From Xanthomonas hydrangeae (GTDB taxonomy: Bacteria > Pseudomonadota > Gammaproteobacteria > Xanthomonadales > Xanthomonadaceae): a DNA stretch of 64,000 bases. Below the pieces are notes generated by a model. That model saw only the letters and a program-made list of their open reading frames with translations. It was not told where the DNA came from and made no database searches. Shown here piece after piece: positions 45,052 through 53,186 of this stretch (the first letter of the stretch is position 1; every line of letters starts with the position of its first letter). Position numbers and translations under genes: made by a program. The DNA is taken from positions 248,001 through 312,000 of the forward strand of contig LR990730.1 in NCBI GenBank assembly GCA_905142475.1. Reading direction: 5' to 3'.

Positions 45052-45396
45052 GATCGAGATACCTGTACTTATTGATTTGGGCCGGCGCTGAGGCGGATGC
45101 CGTTCGCTGCCGAGATGTAAATTCTCCGTTATTCGATGGAACGCGACATGAATTTTGAACTGACTGGTGCATGAATCATCGCGCCTGGTTCAGTTCCGGT
45201 TTTTGTCATCAAGCTGCAATGCGTGTAGCGCACAGGCAAAGCGTGATCGGGTGGGGGTTACTTCGCGACGATGTGATACGCGCGTGTAGAAACACCTGTT
45301 TTGCAGCGTTTTTGCCGTTTGCATCGAGGCGAGGACATTGCACTGACGCTGCGGCTGGGACCATGCAGGATTGTTGAACATCTCTGGAGCTGCATT
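45052..45396. other. Divergent promoter region ax21/poxB
   Basis: 345 bp without a gene, AT-richer at 45110-45180, where the ax21 promoter must lie (minus strand). The poxB side has GGAG 8 nt before GTG 45397. No operator or consensus promoter could be named with confidence. Confidence 0.55.
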
Positions 45397-47124
45397 GTGG
45401 CGAAGAAAAAGACGTTGGCGCGGTTTCTGGCCGAGACGCTGCAGAGCGCGGGTGTGGAGCGGATATGGGGTGTGACCGGCGACAGCCTCAACGGCTTGAC
45501 CGATGCCTTGCGTGAGATGCAGACGATCGAATGGATGCATGTGCGCCACGAAGAAGTCGCCGCATTCGCCGCTGGCGCCGAGGCTGCAGTGACCGGCCAG
45601 CTGGCCGTGTGTGCGGGCAGCTGCGGGCCGGGCAATCTGCATTTGATCAACGGGCTGTTTGATTGCCATCGCAGCCGTCAGCCGGTGCTGGCGATCGCTG
45701 CGCATATTCCCTCGTCCGAGATCGGGCTGAGTTATTTTCAGGAGACCCACCCGCAGGAGTTGTTCCGCGAGTGCAGTCACTTCGTGGAGTTGGTGACCAA
45801 CCCGGCGCAGCTGCCGGAAGTGCTGCATCGGGCGATGCGCACCGCCATCCTGCAGCAGGGTGTGGCGGTGGTGGTGATCCCCGGCGATATCGCGTTGCTG
45901 GAAATGGACAAGCACGTGTCCAGTGCCTGGCCGCAATTGCGCCAGCCGCGCGTGCTGCCAGCCGCCGAAGACGTGGCGCAGTTGGCCGAGCTGTTGCAGC
46001 AAAGCGAGGCGATCACGCTGTTGTGCGGCAGCGGCTGCGCGGGTGCACACGATGCGGTGGTGGCATTGGCCGACACCCTGGGCGCGCCGATCGTGCACGC
46101 GTTGCGCGGGAAAGAATATGTGGAGTGGGAGAACCCGTTCGATGTCGGCATGACCGGTTTGATCGGTTTTAGTTCCGGCTACCACGCGATGCTCAACTGC
46201 GACACCTTGATCATGCTGGGCACGGATTTTCCGTATCGGCAGTTCTACCCGAAGGACGCGACCATCGTGCAGGTGGATCGCGACCCGAGCGCATTGGGAC
46301 GGCGCACGCCCTTGCAACTGGGGATCGCGGCGGATGTGGGCGAAACCATTGCCGCCTTGTTGCCGCACCTGCAGCGACGCGAGAAACGCGACTTCCTGGA
46401 GAAATCGCTTGCGCACTACCGCAAGGCACGCGAGGGGCTGGACGATCTGGCGGTGCCGGCAGACCCGGGCGAGCCGCTGCATCCGCAATTCGTGGCGCGG
46501 ATGATCAGCCAGATTGCCGACCAGGATGCAGTGTTTACCTGCGATGTCGGCACGCCGACAGTGTGGGCCGCGCGCTATCTGCGCATGAACGGACAACGCC
46601 GTTTGCTCGGCTCGTTCAATCACGGTTCGATGGCCAATGCGATGCCACAGGCGCTGGGCGCACAGGCGGCGTTTCCAGGCCGTCAGGTGATTTCGCTGTC
46701 TGGCGATGGCGGCTTTGCGATGTTGATGGGCGATTTCATCTCGCTGGCGCAGCTGCGTCTGCCGGTGAAGATCGTGGTGTTCAACAATGCCTCGCTGGGA
46801 TTTGTGGCGATGGAGATGAAGGCCGCGGGTTATCTGGATACCGGCACCGAGTTGCGCAATCCGGACTTCGCTGCGATGAGCAATGCGATGGGCATTTTGG
46901 GCATCCGTGTGGATGAGTCGTCGCAGCTGGAACGTGCATTGCGGCAGGCCTTTGCGCATTCCGGCCCGGCGTTGGTGGATGTACGCATCGCCACGCAGGA
47001 ACTGGCAGTGCCGCCGGCGATCAAGTTGGAACAGGCCAAGGGGATGGGCCTGTATCTGCTCAAGGCGGTGATGAGTGGGCGCGGCGATGAAGTGATCGAT
47101 CTGGTCAAGACCAATATGCGTTAA
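45397..47124 (+). CDS. poxB: Ubiquinone-dependent pyruvate dehydrogenase (pyruvate oxidase) PoxB
   Basis: 575 residues from GTG 45397 (GGAG upstream), the length of E. coli PoxB (572). TPP- and FAD-dependent peripheral membrane enzyme turning pyruvate into acetate and CO2 while reducing ubiquinone. Motifs: [14 protein letters not shown] and [16 protein letters not shown] (TPP activation glutamate), [19 protein letters not shown] region, and the TPP-binding [29 protein letters not shown] split over the window 46700-46790. The C-terminal lipid-binding helix region (about 550-575) is present. In E. coli poxB is a stationary-phase gene; here the promoter was not identified. Confidence 0.93.
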
Positions 47125-47171: not shown

Positions 47172-48614
47172 ATGCCTCGCTCGTTGTTGCGCCAATTGCT
47201 GTTGATCTGGGTGGTGGTTCTGGCCGCCTGCGTGGGCGTGGCCACGATGTTGTATGTCCTGTACCGACAAACAGAAGGCGTGCGACTGGATGAGGCGCGC
47301 CAGCAATTGAGCGCGCAGTGCACGCGCATCGTGCAGCGCTATGCCGGCGCAAGCGAGGCCGCGCGCAGTGGCGACAACGGCGCCGGGCTGGCAGCGGTGG
47401 TGGTGCAGTTGGTGCTGGCCGACGCGCCCGGCGTGGAAGGCGGGGTGTGGAATCTCGACAAGGGATTTATTGCCTATGCCTATCCCACCTACGACGGTAG
47501 CGATCACAAGACCGATATCCCCGCCGCCGAGTGGACCACGATCGTCAGTACTGCACGGCAAAGTGCGGTGGGTAACAAGGCGGTGGAATTTCGTCGCGAT
47601 GGCAGCCGCGAAGTGGTGTTGATCAGCGCCTGCCCGCTGGCCTCGGGCACCGCCGCATGGACCATGTCGCGAGTGCCGGCGAGCACCTCCGATGCCTGGC
47701 GGCCGTTGGTGATCGGCATGCTGCTGATCTTCGCCATGGTGGCGGTGTCGGCGATCGCGTTGGGCGTGGTGGTGCGGCGCTGGAGCCAGCGCCTGCAGCG
47801 GATCCAGCAGGCGCTCGCCGCCGATACCGAGCTCCCGCAGATACCGGTCACCGGCGCACCCGAGCTGGATCGGTTGGGCGCTGCGGTGAGCGACTACGCA
47901 CAGCGTAATGCGCAAGCGCTGGCGCAGACACGGCGGTTGGCCGACGAGCTATCCCGGCACGAACGTCTGGCCGCGCTTGGCCGCCTGACGGCGACGGTGG
48001 CGCATGAGATTCGCAACCCGATCGCCACCATGCGTCTGGCGGTGGAAAACGACATCGCCAGGCGGCAGAGCACGCCGGACGATGCTGCGCATGGCGAGCT
48101 GATGCTGGGCCAGATCCGTCGCCTGGATGGGGTGGTCGAAAGTCTGCTCGGCATGGTGCAGCCGATCCGTCTGCAGTTGGAAACGGTGGTGGTGCAGGAC
48201 TGGTTGGCGACCTTGCTGGATCCGGCCTTGCTACCGCCAGGCACGCCTGCGCCACAGCTGCGCGTGCCTGCTACGCCGTTGCAATGGACGCTCGACCCAC
48301 AGCAGCTCGGGCGCGCCGTGCACAATCTGCTGCGCAACGCGTTGCAGCACGCCGACGCAGGCAGCACGGTGACGTTGGAGGCCAGCGCCAGCGATGATTT
48401 GTTGCAGCTACAGGTCTGCAATCGTGGCGCGGCTATCGCCGAGTCCATTGCAGCGCAGTTGTTCGAGCCGTTCGTCAGCGGTCGCAGCGATGGCAATGGC
48501 CTCGGCCTTGCCCTGGTGCGCGAGATCGCGCGCGCGCATGGCGGGCAGGTGCGTTACGTACATGCCGATGGCATGACCCATTTCATTGTGGAGCTGCCAT
48601 GGCGCGCATCCTGA
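47172..48614 (+). CDS. Sensor histidine kinase of an orphan sigma-54 two-component system
   Basis: 480 residues. Two membrane helices (about 8-30 and 176-202) bracket a periplasmic sensor domain (about 31-175) of no recognised family. A cytoplasmic linker leads to a HisKA domain with TATVAHEIRNPIATMRLAVE and an ATPase domain with HNLLRNALQHADAG and GNGLGLALVREIARAHGG. It lies 47 nt after poxB and overlaps the next gene, its response regulator, by 16 nt. The signal is unknown; the periplasmic domain suggests envelope or external cues. Related kinases of this architecture pair with NtrC-like regulators. Confidence 0.9.
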   Translation: MPRSLLRQLLLIWVVVLAACVGVATMLYVLYRQTEGVRLDEARQQLSAQCTRIVQRYAGASEAARSGDNGAGLAAVVVQLVLADAPGVEGGVWNLDKGFIAYAYPTYDGSDHKTDIPAAEWTTIVSTARQSAVGNKAVEFRRDGSREVVLISACPLASGTAAWTMSRVPASTSDAWRPLVIGMLLIFAMVAVSAIALGVVVRRWSQRLQRIQQALAADTELPQIPVTGAPELDRLGAAVSDYAQRNAQALAQTRRLADELSRHERLAALGRLTATVAHEIRNPIATMRLAVENDIARRQSTPDDAAHGELMLGQIRRLDGVVESLLGMVQPIRLQLETVVVQDWLATLLDPALLPPGTPAPQLRVPATPLQWTLDPQQLGRAVHNLLRNALQHADAGSTVTLEASASDDLLQLQVCNRGAAIAESIAAQLFEPFVSGRSDGNGLGLALVREIARAHGGQVRYVHADGMTHFIVELPWRAS

Positions 48615-49939
48615 TCATCGATGACGACGCGGCGTTTCTTGCCACCTTGCAGGCAACGCTGCGCTCGCTCGGCCATACGGTGATCGCGGTCGATAACGGC
48701 GCCGATGGATTGGTGCGCTTGAACGAGGGCGGTATCGCGTTGGCGTTCGTGGACTTCCGCATGCCCGGCATGGACGGCATTGCGGTGTTGCGCGCGCGGG
48801 CGGACGATGCCCGTGCGCGTCGGGTGCCATTGGTGATGCTCACCGCATACGCGTCCAGCGGCAACACCATCGAAGCGATGACGCTGGGTGCGTTCGATCA
48901 CCTGGTCAAACCGGTGGGGCGTGCCGATATCGTCGAGGTGGTTGAGCGTGCATTGGCAAGTCGTGCGGACACCGACGCCGATACCGCGGCGACCGGGCTG
49001 CCTGAAGACGACGACGCCCTGATTGGCCACAGCCCGGCGATGCGTAACGTGCACAAACGCATCGGGCTGGCGGCAGCCTCCGATTTGCCGGTGTTGATCA
49101 CCGGCGAGACCGGCACCGGCAAGGAGCTGGCTGCGCGTGCCTTGCATCGTGCCAGCGCACGCGCGAATGCGGCGTTCGTGGCGGTCAATTGCGCCGCGAT
49201 TCCCTTGGAGCTGATGGAGAGCGAGTTGTTCGGCCATCGCAAGGGCGCGTTTTCCGGGGCGACCGGCGACCGTATCGGCCTGATTCGCGAGGCCGATGGT
49301 GGCACCTTGTTCCTGGACGAGATCGGCGACATGCCGCTGCCGATGCAGGCCAAGTTGTTGCGCTTTCTGCAGGAAGGTGAAGTCACGCCCCTGGGTGGCC
49401 GCGGCGCGCAGAAGGTGGATGTGCGCGTGCTGGCGGCCACGCATCGCGATCTGGCCGCGTGGGTGGCGGCTGGGCAGTTTCGCAGCGACCTGCGTTATCG
49501 CCTGAATGTGGTGCCGATCGAGCTGCCGCCGCTGCGCGAACGCGGGCAGGACATCGTGCTGCTTGCGCAGTATTTTCTGCGCACCGGCGAAGGTGCAGCG
49601 CGTGCGTTATCGCCGGACGCGCAAGCGAGGCTGCTGGCCTATCCGTGGCCCGGCAACGTGCGCGAGCTACGGAATGTCATGCAACGCAGTCAGCTACTGG
49701 TGCGCGGCCACAGCATCACCGCCGAGGATCTGGACGAGGCGCTTGGTCACAGTGCCGAGCAACCCATGACGACGGCGCCGGTGGAAGGCACCTTGCCCGA
49801 GGCAGTAGCGCGTCTGGAAAAGCAGATGATCCAGGACGCATTGGCGCACAGTGGCGGTAACCGCGCCGAAGCCGCGCGCCGGCTCGGCATTCATCGCCAG
49901 CTGCTGTATCGCAAGCTCGATGAGTATGGGTTGCAGTAG
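48599..49939 (+). CDS. Sigma-54-dependent response regulator
   Basis: 446 residues. Receiver domain with Asp52 (AFVDFRMPGMDG), AAA+ domain with Walker A GETGTGKE, loop ELFGHRKGAFSGA (serine instead of the threonine in GAFTGA, still found in active members) and Walker B GGTLFLDEIGDMP, then a C-terminal Fis-type helix-turn-helix (NRAEAARRLGIHRQLLYRKL). It overlaps the kinase gene by 16 nt. A consensus sigma-54 promoter lies 298 bp downstream in front of the next gene, so that gene is the probable target. Phosphorylation by the adjoining kinase is inferred. Confidence 0.94.
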   Translation: MARILIIDDDAAFLATLQATLRSLGHTVIAVDNGADGLVRLNEGGIALAFVDFRMPGMDGIAVLRARADDARARRVPLVMLTAYASSGNTIEAMTLGAFDHLVKPVGRADIVEVVERALASRADTDADTAATGLPEDDDALIGHSPAMRNVHKRIGLAAASDLPVLITGETGTGKELAARALHRASARANAAFVAVNCAAIPLELMESELFGHRKGAFSGATGDRIGLIREADGGTLFLDEIGDMPLPMQAKLLRFLQEGEVTPLGGRGAQKVDVRVLAATHRDLAAWVAAGQFRSDLRYRLNVVPIELPPLRERGQDIVLLAQYFLRTGEGAARALSPDAQARLLAYPWPGNVRELRNVMQRSQLLVRGHSITAEDLDEALGHSAEQPMTTAPVEGTLPEAVARLEKQMIQDALAHSGGNRAEAARRLGIHRQLLYRKLDEYGLQ

Positions 49940-50146
49940 TCGCAGCGATAAAACCGAATGCGATGTTTGCGGGCCGGCTTAGTCGGTGCTTTGGCTGCGA
50001 TGCAGTACGCGCACAGCAACACGCGCACATGTGGGTGATTGCATGCCGCCGTTGCCACACGTAGTGCTTGGCCACTGGCGCCACAGCAGACCTTGCGCCG
50101 GGAGAGTGCCTGCTTTCGCACAGTCATGCATAACGAGGCTGCAAAG

Positions 50147-50163
50147 TGTCTGCAAAGCAGACA
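50147..50163. promoter_or_regulatory. Candidate enhancer site for the orphan regulator
   Basis: TGTCTGCAAAGCAGACA is a perfect 17-bp palindrome whose centre is about 109 bp upstream of the predicted sigma-54 transcription start. This is the usual position of an upstream activating sequence. CTGCAAAG also occurs directly repeated 11 bp apart (50139 and 50150). Confidence 0.65.
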
Positions 50164-50236
50164 GTGGTGTATGAAACGCAGACGTTCATTCGCACTACTG
50201 CATGTGCAAAATCCTTGAAAAACAACGCATTCGACG

Positions 50237-50253
50237 TTGGCACGATTGCTGCT
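50237..50253 (+). promoter_or_regulatory. Sigma-54 promoter of the duplicated-domain genes
   Basis: TTGGCACGATTGCTGCT carries GG (50239-50240) and GC (50251-50252) with the obligatory 10-bp spacing and fits TGGCACG-N4-TTGCW except for C in place of the first T. Predicted start near 50264. Confidence 0.85.
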
Positions 50254-50298
50254 TTGTCTTCAGGGCAAGCGGCGCTCCTGCCGCCCTGGAGACATCAC

Positions 50299-51111
50299 AT
50301 GATTCGTCAGACCGCACTCGCTTTCGCACTGGCCTGCAGCGTGGCGACCGCCGCCGCGCAGGCTCCCACACCGCCGGCAGCACCGCTGGCGCCGCGTGCG
50401 CCGGTCGGCACGCCACCGCCGGCTCCGCCGCTGCCGCCCGCACCGCCTGCGCCGTTGGCCGCCACCCCGGTGCGCATCACCGGCACGGTCGAGCGCTTCA
50501 TGCTCAATCCCAATGGCGAGGTCGATGGCCTGTGGTTGCGCGATGGCACCCAGGTGGCGTTTGCGCCGCATCTGTCCGGCGAACTGCAGGCAGCCGTGCG
50601 CCGTGGCGATGCGGTCACCGTGCAGGGTTATCGTCTGGGCAGCCTGCCGGTGCTACGTGCCAGCAGCATCCGTTCCACGCGTGGTGGGCGCGAGGTGGTC
50701 GACCGCCCGCCGACGACCGCCGCGATGCCGCCCGCGCCTCCGGCACCCGCCGCATTGACGCCGTTGCAGGCTGAGGGACGCATCGAGCGGTTGGTCTACG
50801 GCCCCGGTGGCGAGACCAATGGTGCGTTGCTGAGCGATGGCACGCTGGTGCGGATGCCGCCGCATCTGGCGCTGCAGTTCGGCGATGTGTTGCGCACCGG
50901 TGCGCCGCTGAGCGTAAGCGGATTCGGTGTTGCCACGGCCACCGGCCGCGCCATCGAAGCCACGCAGTTGGGTCGCGATCGTGCCTCGCAGCGCGCCTTG
51001 TTCAGTCCTCCGCGCCCGGATGGTCCGGTGCCGCCCGCACCACCGGCGCCGCCTGTCCCGCCGGCCGCACCGCCACCGCCACCGCCGGCTCCGGCGCCGG
51101 CGCCGCGTTGA
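50299..51111 (+). CDS. Secreted Pro/Ala-rich protein with two copies of an undescribed GxxxR...DGTxVxxxPH domain
   Basis: 270 residues from ATG 50299 (GGAG 7 nt upstream). Signal peptide to about residue 20 (AAA before QAPTP). A proline/alanine-rich linker (21-56) precedes repeat 1 (58-125: GTVERFMLNPNGEVDGLWL, RDGTQVAFAPHLSGEL), a second linker, repeat 2 (156-224: GRIERLVYGPGGETNGALL, SDGTLVRMPPHLALQF), then a C-terminal tail of almost only Pro and Ala (237-269). The repeats look like small OB-like beta barrels. No known name or catalytic site. It sits directly under a sigma-54 promoter and next to a paralogue; envelope location is inferred from the signal peptide. Confidence 0.8.
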   Translation: MIRQTALAFALACSVATAAAQAPTPPAAPLAPRAPVGTPPPAPPLPPAPPAPLAATPVRITGTVERFMLNPNGEVDGLWLRDGTQVAFAPHLSGELQAAVRRGDAVTVQGYRLGSLPVLRASSIRSTRGGREVVDRPPTTAAMPPAPPAPAALTPLQAEGRIERLVYGPGGETNGALLSDGTLVRMPPHLALQFGDVLRTGAPLSVSGFGVATATGRAIEATQLGRDRASQRALFSPPRPDGPVPPAPPAPPVPPAAPPPPPPAPAPAPR

Positions 51112-51117
51112 TCCATC

Positions 51118-51141
51118 GCGCCGTCGCACACGCGACGGCGC
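51118..51141 (+). terminator. Hairpin between the two duplicated-domain genes
   Basis: Perfect 9-bp stem GCGCCGTCG (51118-51126) with CGACGGCGC (51133-51141), 6-nt loop, 6 nt after the stop. No T-run, so partial read-through into the next gene is likely, lowering its expression relative to the first. Confidence 0.6.
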
Positions 51142-51243
51142 TCACACCGTTCATCTCTATGCGCTTTTCCTGCCACGTGTCATGCGTGGCGAGGGGCGCG
51201 GCTTGCCGGCGTTGGCCGGTCCTATTTTCGTTGGAGTTCTTTC

Positions 51244-51858
51244 ATGCATTGGGTCGATCCTGATTTCCTTCCCGAAACCCGCGGCACGCTGGCGCGCTTT
51301 CTGCTCAATCCCAAGGCCGATATCGATGGCCTGCTGCTGACCGACGGCACCGAAGTGCACACACCGCCGCATCTGTCTGCCGCCTTGCTCAAGGCGCTCA
51401 AGCCCGGCAGCACGTTGACCGTGCGTGGCCTCAAGCCGCGCGATGTGGACATGCTGGTGGCGCTGGCGATCGATCCGGAAGGCGGCAAGCGCATTCTCGA
51501 TGAAGGCCCGCATGGGCCGCACGTCAAACCCAAGCCCAAACCGCCTGCCGGCAAGCCACCCAAGCCGCAACGTACCCAGCACAGCGGCACCATTGCGCGG
51601 TTGCTGCACGGCCCGCACGGGCAAGTGCATGGCGTGTTGCTCGATGACGGGGCCACGGTGCGGTTTCCACCGCATGCTGGCGCCGACTTTTCCAAGCAGC
51701 TGATCGTCGGCAAGGCGCTGGTTGCAGAAGGCGAGACCCAGGCGACGCCGCACGGCGTGCTGATCCACGCGCATGCGTTGGGCGCCAAGGCCGCGTCGCT
51801 GAAGCAGATCGAGCATCCGCATGGCCCGGGTGCACATAAGCCCAAGCCCAAGCACTAG
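51244..51858 (+). CDS. Cytoplasmic paralogue with two copies of the same undescribed domain
   Basis: 204 residues from ATG 51244 (TTGGAG 8 nt upstream). No signal peptide. Repeat 1 (about 12-76: GTLARFLLNPKADIDGLLL, TDGTEVHTPPHLSAAL) and repeat 2 (about 112-178: GTIARLLHGPHGQVHGVLL, DDGATVRFPPH) are joined by a lysine/proline/histidine-rich linker (86-111), and the tail HPHGPGAHKPKPKH is also rich in these residues. The shared signature is G-x-[ILV]-x-R-[FL], G-[LAV]-x-L-x-D-G-[TA]-x-V-x(3)-P-H. Its basic linkers contrast with the neutral Pro/Ala linkers of the secreted paralogue. Function unknown; basic tails could bind nucleic acid or acidic polymers. Confidence 0.78.
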   Translation: MHWVDPDFLPETRGTLARFLLNPKADIDGLLLTDGTEVHTPPHLSAALLKALKPGSTLTVRGLKPRDVDMLVALAIDPEGGKRILDEGPHGPHVKPKPKPPAGKPPKPQRTQHSGTIARLLHGPHGQVHGVLLDDGATVRFPPHAGADFSKQLIVGKALVAEGETQATPHGVLIHAHALGAKAASLKQIEHPHGPGAHKPKPKH

Positions 51859-51962: not shown

Positions 51963-53186
51963 ATGCGCATGAGCACACCGCGCCCACGAGGCAGCCGCGC
52001 ACTGGAAGCGCTGCATTTCAGCGTGGCCGATGTGCAGGACGGGCTGGGGCCGTTTCTCAGCGTGTTTTTGCAATCCAAGGGCTGGTCGGTGGCGGCGATC
52101 GGTACGGTGATGAGCGTGGGCGGCATCGCCGGCATGCTTGCCACCACGCCGGCCGGTGCACTGGTCGATACCACCCGGCGCAAGCGCGCCGTGGTGGTGG
52201 TCGGCTGTCTGGCGATTCTGTTGGCCACTGCACTGATCTGGCTGCGGCCGAGCTCCTCCGGTGTGGTCGCCGCACAGATCGTCTCGGCATTGGCGGCAGC
52301 CGGTATCGGCCCGGCGCTGACCGGCATCACCTTGGGGCTGGCGCATGCGCATGGGTTCGATCATCAACTGGCGCGCAATCAGGTCGCCAACCATGCCGGC
52401 AACATGCTGGCCGCACTATTGGCCGGCTGGCTGGGATGGCGTTACGGGTTCGCGGCGGTGTTCGTGCTCACCGCTGCATTCGGTGTGTTGGCGATCGTGG
52501 CGGTGTGGCTGATTCCGTCGGCGGCCATCGACCATCGCGCCGCGCGTGGTCTCGGCAACACCGATGGCGCCGACGCTCTCAGTGGTTGGCGCGTCTTGCT
52601 GACCTGCCGTCCACTGGCGCTGTTGGCGGTCACGCTGGGTCTGTTCCATCTGGGCAATGCGGCGATGTTGCCGTTGTACGGCATGGCGATCGTGGCCGCG
52701 CATGCGGGCGACCCGAGTGCGCTGACGGCCACCACCATCGTGGTCGCGCAGGCCACGATGGTGGTGGTGGCGTTGTTGGCGATGCGCTGGATCCGCCTGC
52801 ACGGACATTGGTGGGTGTTGCTGGTGGCATTCATGGCGTTGCCATTGCGCGCGCTGGTCGCCGCATCGTTGATCCAGGGCTGGGGCGTGTTTCCGGTGCA
52901 GATGCTCGATGGACTCGGTGCCGGCCTGCAGGCCGTGGTGGTGCCGGCGTTGGTGGCGCGTTTGCTGCAGGGCACCGGGCGCGTCAATGTCGGTCAGGGC
53001 GCTGTGATGACGGTGCAAGGTGTGGGCGCGGCGCTGAGCCCGGCATTCGGTGGCTGGCTGGCGCACGCCTTCGGCTATCGCGTCGCGTTTCTGGCGCTGG
53101 GCGCGATCGCGTTGTTGGCGGTGGCGCTGTGGGCAGGCTGCCGCGGCATGTTGCGGGCAGCGATCGATGTGCAAGCGGTGCAGTGA
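51963..53186 (+). CDS. Major facilitator superfamily transporter
   Basis: 407 residues with about 12 hydrophobic segments and the MFS loop between helices 2 and 3 (GALVDTTRRKRAV, a motif-A like D-x(3)-R-[RK]). Motif C/central-loop and a second motif A-like segment (ARLLQGTGRVN) are visible. The LHFSVADVQDGLGPFLSVFLQSKGWS start marks a group of MFS proteins of unknown substrate. It is 104 nt after the duplicated-domain gene on the same strand, so part of the same transcript is possible. ATG 51963 could also be 51969 (MSTPRPR). Confidence 0.87.
   Translation: MRMSTPRPRGSRALEALHFSVADVQDGLGPFLSVFLQSKGWSVAAIGTVMSVGGIAGMLATTPAGALVDTTRRKRAVVVVGCLAILLATALIWLRPSSSGVVAAQIVSALAAAGIGPALTGITLGLAHAHGFDHQLARNQVANHAGNMLAALLAGWLGWRYGFAAVFVLTAAFGVLAIVAVWLIPSAAIDHRAARGLGNTDGADALSGWRVLLTCRPLALLAVTLGLFHLGNAAMLPLYGMAIVAAHAGDPSALTATTIVVAQATMVVVALLAMRWIRLHGHWWVLLVAFMALPLRALVAASLIQGWGVFPVQMLDGLGAGLQAVVVPALVARLLQGTGRVNVGQGAVMTVQGVGAALSPAFGGWLAHAFGYRVAFLALGAIALLAVALWAGCRGMLRAAIDVQAVQ

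Follow-up and report, generated by a model that had tools for sequence, protein, structure and literature searches.

The locus described here lies in a 64,000-nucleotide stretch of the Xanthomonas hydrangeae genome (assembly GCA_905142475.1, contig LR990730.1, positions 248,001 to 312,000; hereafter the window, whose coordinates we use), the closest named relative being Xanthomonas hortorum (P4 99% identical). Five genes follow one another on the same strand: a sensor histidine kinase (HK), an NtrC-type sigma-54 response regulator (RR), two paralogous proteins designated P3 and P4, and a transporter of the major facilitator superfamily (MFS) (Table 1). An initial annotation, made from the DNA letters alone, had described a self-contained sigma-54 circuit in which an overlapping HK and RR sense an envelope or external signal and, through a single palindrome and a promoter, switch on two proteins built from a repeated domain. 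The open reading frames bear out the overlap, which is 16 nt, and the promoter and the perfect 17-bp palindrome were both confirmed, the promoter TTGGCACGATTGCTGCT lying 297 bases downstream of the RR stop codon. A second, imperfect site (site B) had been overlooked; it starts 21 bp downstream of the palindrome (site A), a distance of about two helical turns. P3 begins at an ATG preceded by a conserved GGAGA. Between 47000 and 53900, no Rfam family matched at the gathering score, and a simple consensus scan returned no sigma-70-type promoter.

Table 1. Genes and putative regulatory elements of the locus, in window coordinates
Feature	Position	Strand	Remarks
Sensor histidine kinase HK	47172..48614	+	HisKA and HATPase_c; sensor part 47253-47717 modeled as PAS/Cache-like
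NtrC-type sigma-54 response regulator RR	48599..49939	+	REC, Sigma54_activat and Fis-type helix-turn-helix; GAFSGA replaces GAFTGA
Upstream activating site A (putative), TGTC-N9-GACA	50147..50163	+	TGTCTGCAAAGCAGACA, perfect 17-bp palindrome; starts 91 bp before the -24 element
Upstream site B, imperfect, TGTATGAAACGCAGACG	50168..50184	+	6/8 arm bases; starts 70 bp before the -24 element
Predicted sigma-54 -24/-12 promoter, TTGGCACGATTGCTGCT	50237..50253	+	GG-N10-GC; consensus match and conservation
P3, with predicted signal peptide and proline-rich linkers	50299..51111	+	Domain repeats 50473-50709 and 50764-51000
P4, paralogue without signal peptide	51244..51858	+	N-terminus MHWVDPD; repeats 51271-51510 and 51574-51813, each modeled as an OB fold
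MFS transporter, final gene of the conserved block	51963..53186	+	Open reading frame and family match

As had been proposed, P3 and P4 each contain the same domain twice (about 75-80 residues; core G..xRFxLNPxGxxDGxxLxDGTxVxxPPHL), and neither protein matches a Pfam or NCBIfam family at an E value of 0.1. Toxin-, pilus-, flagellum- and nitrogen-type effectors were considered and set aside, the proteins having no family match, which agrees with the initial remark that they resemble nothing nitrogen-, flagellar- or pilus-like. The profile libraries hold a model of the BOF (YgiW/YdeI/SipA) family; when 16 single domains were searched, three Pfam families appeared at E values of 0.07-0.16 with one member each, which is chance level, and none was BOF. 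The AlphaFold model of P4 (21 sequences; mean predicted local distance difference test [pLDDT] score, 83.5) gives each half a predicted beta-beta-beta-alpha-beta-beta order, and the best structural neighbors of the domains are the OB domains of SSB, PriB and TiaS. We assign the OB fold from the P4 model and at the level of the single domain only, because Foldseek matches across both domains have template modeling scores of about 0.2-0.3 and a root mean square deviation of about 17. No viral structure matched the P4 model at an E value of 0.001 or below, and a sequence search of the PDB gave one match, at an E value of 0.67, which was not used. A phage origin was also rejected, with a single PHROGs match at an E value of 0.39 and none among phage records at 1e-3 (P3 only searched). 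In a tree of 54 sequences, the 23 proteins that begin with MHW and have no signal peptide fall into one group (support 100/98); a crude hydropathy rule predicts a signal peptide in 26 of the 31 P3-type sequences and in none of the 23 P4-type ones. Since the P4-type sequences form one group, the split into the two forms predates the spread across classes, whether by descent or by transfer.

By count within the window, neither the palindrome nor the promoter motif is striking alone. Promoter-like matches with at most two mismatches number 7 (5.15 expected), and the palindrome has one match at that tolerance (0.37 expected), a count reached in 29 of 100 shuffles. The case for the promoter and its sites rests on conservation. 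We also searched the palindrome elsewhere in the 5.58-Mb genome, as the initial annotation had suggested. Its perfect form occurs once, and this perfection is a detail of the strain, relatives mostly carrying TGTCTGCAAAGCGGACA or TGTCCCC variants. With up to two mismatches the palindrome occurs at 29 places, about three times the 10 found for a reversed control. Of the 28 other places, 14 were examined for a strong -24/-12 element at a distance of 55-105 bp to either side; none was found, the best score near them being 18.9, versus 22.2 at this locus. The strict combination of TGTC-N9-GACA with a -24/-12 element at the right spacing is present once in the genome, here (reversed control, 0).

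Conservation within Xanthomonas is complete for the promoters compared. Both elements are kept in 26 of 26 (25 named loci and the window), with the site starting 90-92 bp before the -24 element and at least 7 of its 8 arm bases retained, and where the threshold detected a further, weaker site, it is 19-22 bp downstream of the first. In the alignment of the 26 intergenic sequences, TTGGCAC and the CTGC of the -12 element are invariant while the surrounding sequence drifts. Three of the 28 named loci (L037, L038 and L043) were left out because their contigs begin inside P3, at codons 67, 46 and 59, respectively. In one further genome (G092), two P3-like matches sit at the ends of contigs; it looks as though the GC- and proline-rich repeat of P3 breaks assemblies in all four cases. 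P4 was found in 30 of 35 Xanthomonas genomes. In the five without a match to either protein (one of them only 81% complete), the best regulator match is a paralogue at 41-48% identity and no MFS match appears at an E value of 1e-40; in two genomes positive for these proteins and searched alongside, RR and MFS are both present at 84-93%. These comparisons support the view that the effectors, the RR orthologue and the transporter are gained and lost as a unit in the genus. At L023, the MFS match covers only residues 263-407, at 68%, and the gene looks truncated or replaced.

The arrangement is not confined to Xanthomonas. Proteins of the P3/P4 family (P proteins) occur in at least 4 of 300 Burkholderiales and at least 8 of 385 Alphaproteobacteria genomes, 5 of the latter being strong cases. 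These tallies, like that for Pseudomonadota given below, are lower bounds, the profile searches having scored 7-9 first-look candidates per large genome; three marginal alphaproteobacterial matches (about 50-60 residues, E values of 4e-4 to 9e-4) were dropped. P proteins also lie on 20 plasmid records, from Caballeronia, Paraburkholderia, Burkholderia, Bradyrhizobium, Methylocystis, Methylocapsa and Acidiphilium; 17 of these contexts were examined, leaving out three apparent near-duplicates, and four of the 17 were unannotated and read by tblastn only. An HK and an RR of this type stand in the same stretch in 20 of 30 non-Xanthomonas loci, which we call linked (the kinases of L111, L113 and L115 were assigned by annotation), and 12 of these 20 also encode a P4-type paralogue.

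Promoter geometry was measured in 20 non-Xanthomonas promoters, namely, those of 19 linked loci and of L045. The linked locus L079, whose promoter stands before an anion-transporter gene and has a weak -24/-12 element, was for these reasons measured apart; there the distance from the start of the site to the -24 element is 93 bp. To pass, a promoter needed a -24/-12 score of 20 or more out of 22.5. It also needed a TGTC-N9-GACA site that matched in 7 or all 8 of the 8 bases and whose start lay 66-72 or 88-93 bp ahead of that element. Sixteen of the 20 promoters passed, compared to 1 of 6,000 shuffled copies of the same stretches. Thirteen sites start at 68-70 bp, 14 at 90-92 bp and 6 elsewhere, and across 30 loci the half-sites are separated by N9 in 31 cases and by N10 in 6. 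In L077, L078 and L079, members of one family, the -12 element ends in TTGA, not TTGC, and the upstream sites are kept, with one mismatch in L077.

Where no HK-RR pair is adjacent, the arrangement is lacking at nine of ten loci (L081-L084, L089, L092, L112, L114 and L120), L082 and L083 having one isolated 7-of-8 site match each. It is present at the tenth, L045, where a 56% identical RR lies on another contig of the same genome; unlinked regulators were sought in the genomes of L045, L081 and L120 and, for L089, in the plasmid record only. L045 belongs to a metagenome-assembled Terriglobia genome, with a P protein, a perfect site and the promoter on one contig and the HK-RR pair on another (L132). 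This may reflect control in trans or misbinning, the latter being possible because L045 is a contig of a metagenome-assembled genome and the RR on the other contig groups with alphaproteobacterial ones; we use it as supporting evidence only. Several of the unlinked copies have settings of their own. An orphan P4-type gene in Caballeronia (L084, L112 and L114, 8001-8552 in L114) has a GntR regulator on one side and an amidohydrolase on the other and lacks the cis sites, and in Caballeronia M1242, where the full system is on another plasmid (L115), the orphan (L114) lacks sites despite the presence of the RR. L081, L082 and L083, from three small genomes of a single alphaproteobacterial genus, are divergent copies that have neither HK-RR nor the site arrangement. 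In Paraburkholderia PGU19 (L092), a P4 copy lies beside a divalent metal transporter and a thiamine-pyrophosphate enzyme that is 33% identical to the PoxB-type protein of the window. The gene for that protein, a ubiquinone-dependent pyruvate dehydrogenase (45391-47124; 1062.9 bits versus an NCBIfam cut-off of 792), ends 47 bases before HK, and a PoxB match was found in 26 of 29 sources, i.e., the window and all 25 named Xanthomonas loci that extend that far. Read-through from it could set the basal level of HK and RR.

We conclude that the observation is real and holds beyond the genus. A circuit leading from the adjoining RR to P3 and P4 through the palindromes and a sigma-54 promoter, as first proposed, appears well supported by the geometry conserved in Xanthomonas and in alpha- and betaproteobacteria, by co-loss, and by the nine of ten unlinked loci that lack the sites. 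It could be argued instead that the promoter elements are chance matches and that the genes are expressed by read-through or from another promoter. The near-chance counts of each motif in the window fit that idea, whereas conservation of sequence and spacing across distant lineages, together with the negative unlinked loci, largely refutes it, and we regard it as very improbable.

The unit is larger than the two target genes first named, P3 and P4, as it includes the MFS gene and, in other lineages, further permeases. The order is HK-RR-P3-P4-MFS in Burkholderia stagnalis, HK-RR-P3-P4-MFS-anion transporter in Bradyrhizobium barranii, and HK-RR-P3-P4-phosphoesterase-MFS-arsenic transporter-DMT (drug/metabolite transporter) in Paraburkholderia D15 and Caballeronia M1242. 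The additional permeases are of the CitMHS/ArsB and YdcZ types and the phosphoesterase is calcineurin-like. PF02040 scores above its Pfam cut-off in both anion transporters tested, from other species, and the NCBIfam ArsB models score below theirs. A scan for the motif pair (window and 31 loci) gave 19 matches, 16 of which precede P3. Two others precede transporter genes, with sites at 69 and 91 bp in each case: an MFS gene in Methylocystis MJC1 (L088 at 12477) and a divergent metallophosphoesterase-MFS-arsenic-transporter-DMT operon in Caballeronia SBC2 (L091 at 4042, minus strand). In these two organisms, separate exporter genes thus probably belong to the regulon. The description of the circuit as self-contained therefore stands for the X. 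hydrangeae genome at the strict pattern, with 14 of the 28 weaker palindromes checked, but not for Methylocystis MJC1 and Caballeronia SBC2.

HK residues 28-182 are modeled as a long helix and a PAS/Cache-like core (pLDDT 76.8 in the best of five models), closest on realignment to WalK and CitA, with DcuS lower. A predicted extracytoplasmic domain of this kind fits the external signal postulated at the outset. The stretches GVEGG and YAxPTYxG are invariant from Xanthomonas to L044 (15 sequences) and are a candidate ligand or dimer surface. The RR has the full NtrC-type domain set, with PF00072, PF00158 and PF02954 above cut-off. The loop that contacts sigma-54, GAFTGA, has this form in 19 of 47 sequences and reads GAFSGA in 28 (the 26 Xanthomonas regulators read and two others). 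The regulators form a group of 29 sequences in the tree (support 92/97), and the sequence comparisons support a tie between this group and the fixed cis sites before P3.

Each of the known systems compared here differs from this one in some respect. NtrBC and AtoSC share the regulator domain architecture, and ntrC and AtoC are the top two models for RR, but the scores are below the curated cut-offs (432 of 558.6 and 398.7 of 714, respectively). ZraS and ZraR are likewise among the best NCBIfam models for HK and RR, yet far below cut-off (129 of 479 and 384 of 760 bits). The effector of ZraSR, ZraP, is periplasmic; those here are predicted to be OB-fold-like. The nearest regulatory analogue, judged by likeness, is QseF. 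The published passages on QseEF (GlrKR) describe an NtrC-type regulator, a sigma-54 promoter beside its own operon, several short TGT...ACA palindromes and an envelope link (PMC6075780, PMC8745638), and the published site is TGTC-N10-GACA (PMC8745638) or TGT-N12-ACA. In contrast, N9 dominates here, one base from the N10 of QseF, the RR reaches 347 bits against a GlrR cut-off of 763, and the target is a protein operon, where the main target in those passages is a small RNA gene. The nearest working analogue, again by likeness, is SipA/YgiW. Passages on Vibrio cholerae report that SipA is a periplasmic OB-fold protein that binds antimicrobial peptides and whose expression needs a two-component system, VC1638/VC1639 (PMC6370654, PMC5636140). 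P3 and P4 differ from SipA and the BOF proteins in having no family match, two predicted OB domains, a putatively cytoplasmic paralogue and a predicted sigma-54 promoter. We could not establish, and do not claim, that RR is GX_XOC0286, given as "ntrC family" in a passage of PMC6090019. In passages retrieved by term from studies on Xanthomonas RpoN1 and RpoN2 (PMC7280030, PMC7970052), nothing could be tied to this locus, and among the titles and abstract openings listed for the system or its setting there was no description of it, which does not show that it is unpublished.

We think it fairly probable that the operon serves efflux or envelope protection, is induced by an extracytoplasmic sensor and encodes OB proteins that bind a ligand at each face of the inner membrane. 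The two-component system would read an extracytoplasmic signal through the PAS/Cache-like domain, and two dimers of phosphorylated RR would bind in phase at the two TGTC-N9-GACA sites and activate sigma-54 polymerase at one promoter. The output would be periplasmic P3, cytoplasmic P4, each with two OB-fold-like domains, and the MFS permease, to which other lineages would add the ArsB/CitMHS and YdcZ permeases and the phosphoesterase. On our inference, RR occupies these sites, and a single toxic or stress-related ligand, bound by the OB proteins on each side of the membrane, is what the permeases export. The picture draws support from comparisons of gene order and of the geometry of the cis sites, from shared loss and from the paralogue groups; the folds and the signal peptide enter it as predictions.

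Several observations weigh against this reading. The OB fold is common and proves no ligand. The block is patchy, the P protein being found in at least 9 of 398 Pseudomonadota genomes and in 8 of 119 Xanthomonadaceae genomes, all within two genera. Four of the 20 promoters miss the strict geometry, all narrowly: in L076 the sites are shifted by about 10 bp, L086 has 6-of-8 sites at 69 and 91 bp, and L077 and L078 have the weaker -12 element. The 20 loci are not independent, since L113/L115, L116/L117 and L087/L093 are close relatives, and L045 lowers our confidence. The extra motif pair at L085 (15542, in an unannotated record) lies a long way from the module genes and precedes no recognized one, and the promoter check covered 14 of the 28 weaker palindromes. 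The sensor model is weak, with the other four models at pLDDT 64.8 to 40.5 and only one of five above 70, and it has no Foldseek match at an E value of 0.001 (best, 3.6e-3). The Xanthomonas RR carries GAFSGA in place of GAFTGA. Relatives of ArsB/CitMHS, YdcZ and the phosphoesterase are absent from the window and the 28 Xanthomonas loci at an E value of 1e-3. Finally, the transporter is not obligatory, since the linked loci L076, L080 and L090 have no MFS of this family at an E value of 1e-6, and L044 has only a 65-residue MFS remnant after the P gene (40% identity, E value of 3e-5).

The three linked loci without an MFS of this family would suit an envelope-stress module in which the OB proteins would work directly on the envelope, by binding peptides or glycans or by chaperoning, like YgiW/VisP/SipA, with the permeases secondary. 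The predicted signal peptide of P3 fits such a role, as does the precedent of SipA outlined above. The cytoplasmic paralogue at 12 of the 20 linked loci, however, would have no place in a purely periplasmic task, and the two exporter operons that share the same cis sites speak against an envelope-only function; we judge this explanation rather unlikely, though not negligible. Alternatively, the sensor might bind an organic acid, like CitA and DcuS, and the permeases might import a carboxylate or another nutrient for use by the cell. This seems to us improbable, as no catabolic gene recurs in the contexts examined, stress genes occur in some neighborhoods, YdcZ is described as a putative exporter, and the MFS of the window best matches a multidrug-resistance family in NCBIfam, although below cut-off (45.2 versus 131 bits).

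Because the same arrangement recurs, with exporter-like genes, in very different bacteria, it looks like a widespread response module. A more far-reaching version, which we put forward tentatively and with considerable doubt, is that of a resistance or homeostasis module, so far undescribed and spread horizontally. In it, one ligand would be handled at either face of the inner membrane by a pair of double-OB proteins, of which one is secreted and the other cytoplasmic, and exporters would be produced along with them; a dedicated sigma-54 switch would control the whole, its enhancer geometry having stayed fixed from Alphaproteobacteria to Xanthomonas. A family without Pfam or NCBIfam matches thereby gains a predicted fold, a regulator, a cis element and partner transporters, and hypothetical proteins of Xanthomonas, Burkholderia, Caballeronia, Bradyrhizobium and Methylocystis become a testable system. 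The near-fixed spacing of the enhancer sites also provides a clean natural data set on the positioning of sites for enhancer-binding proteins with respect to sigma-54 promoters.

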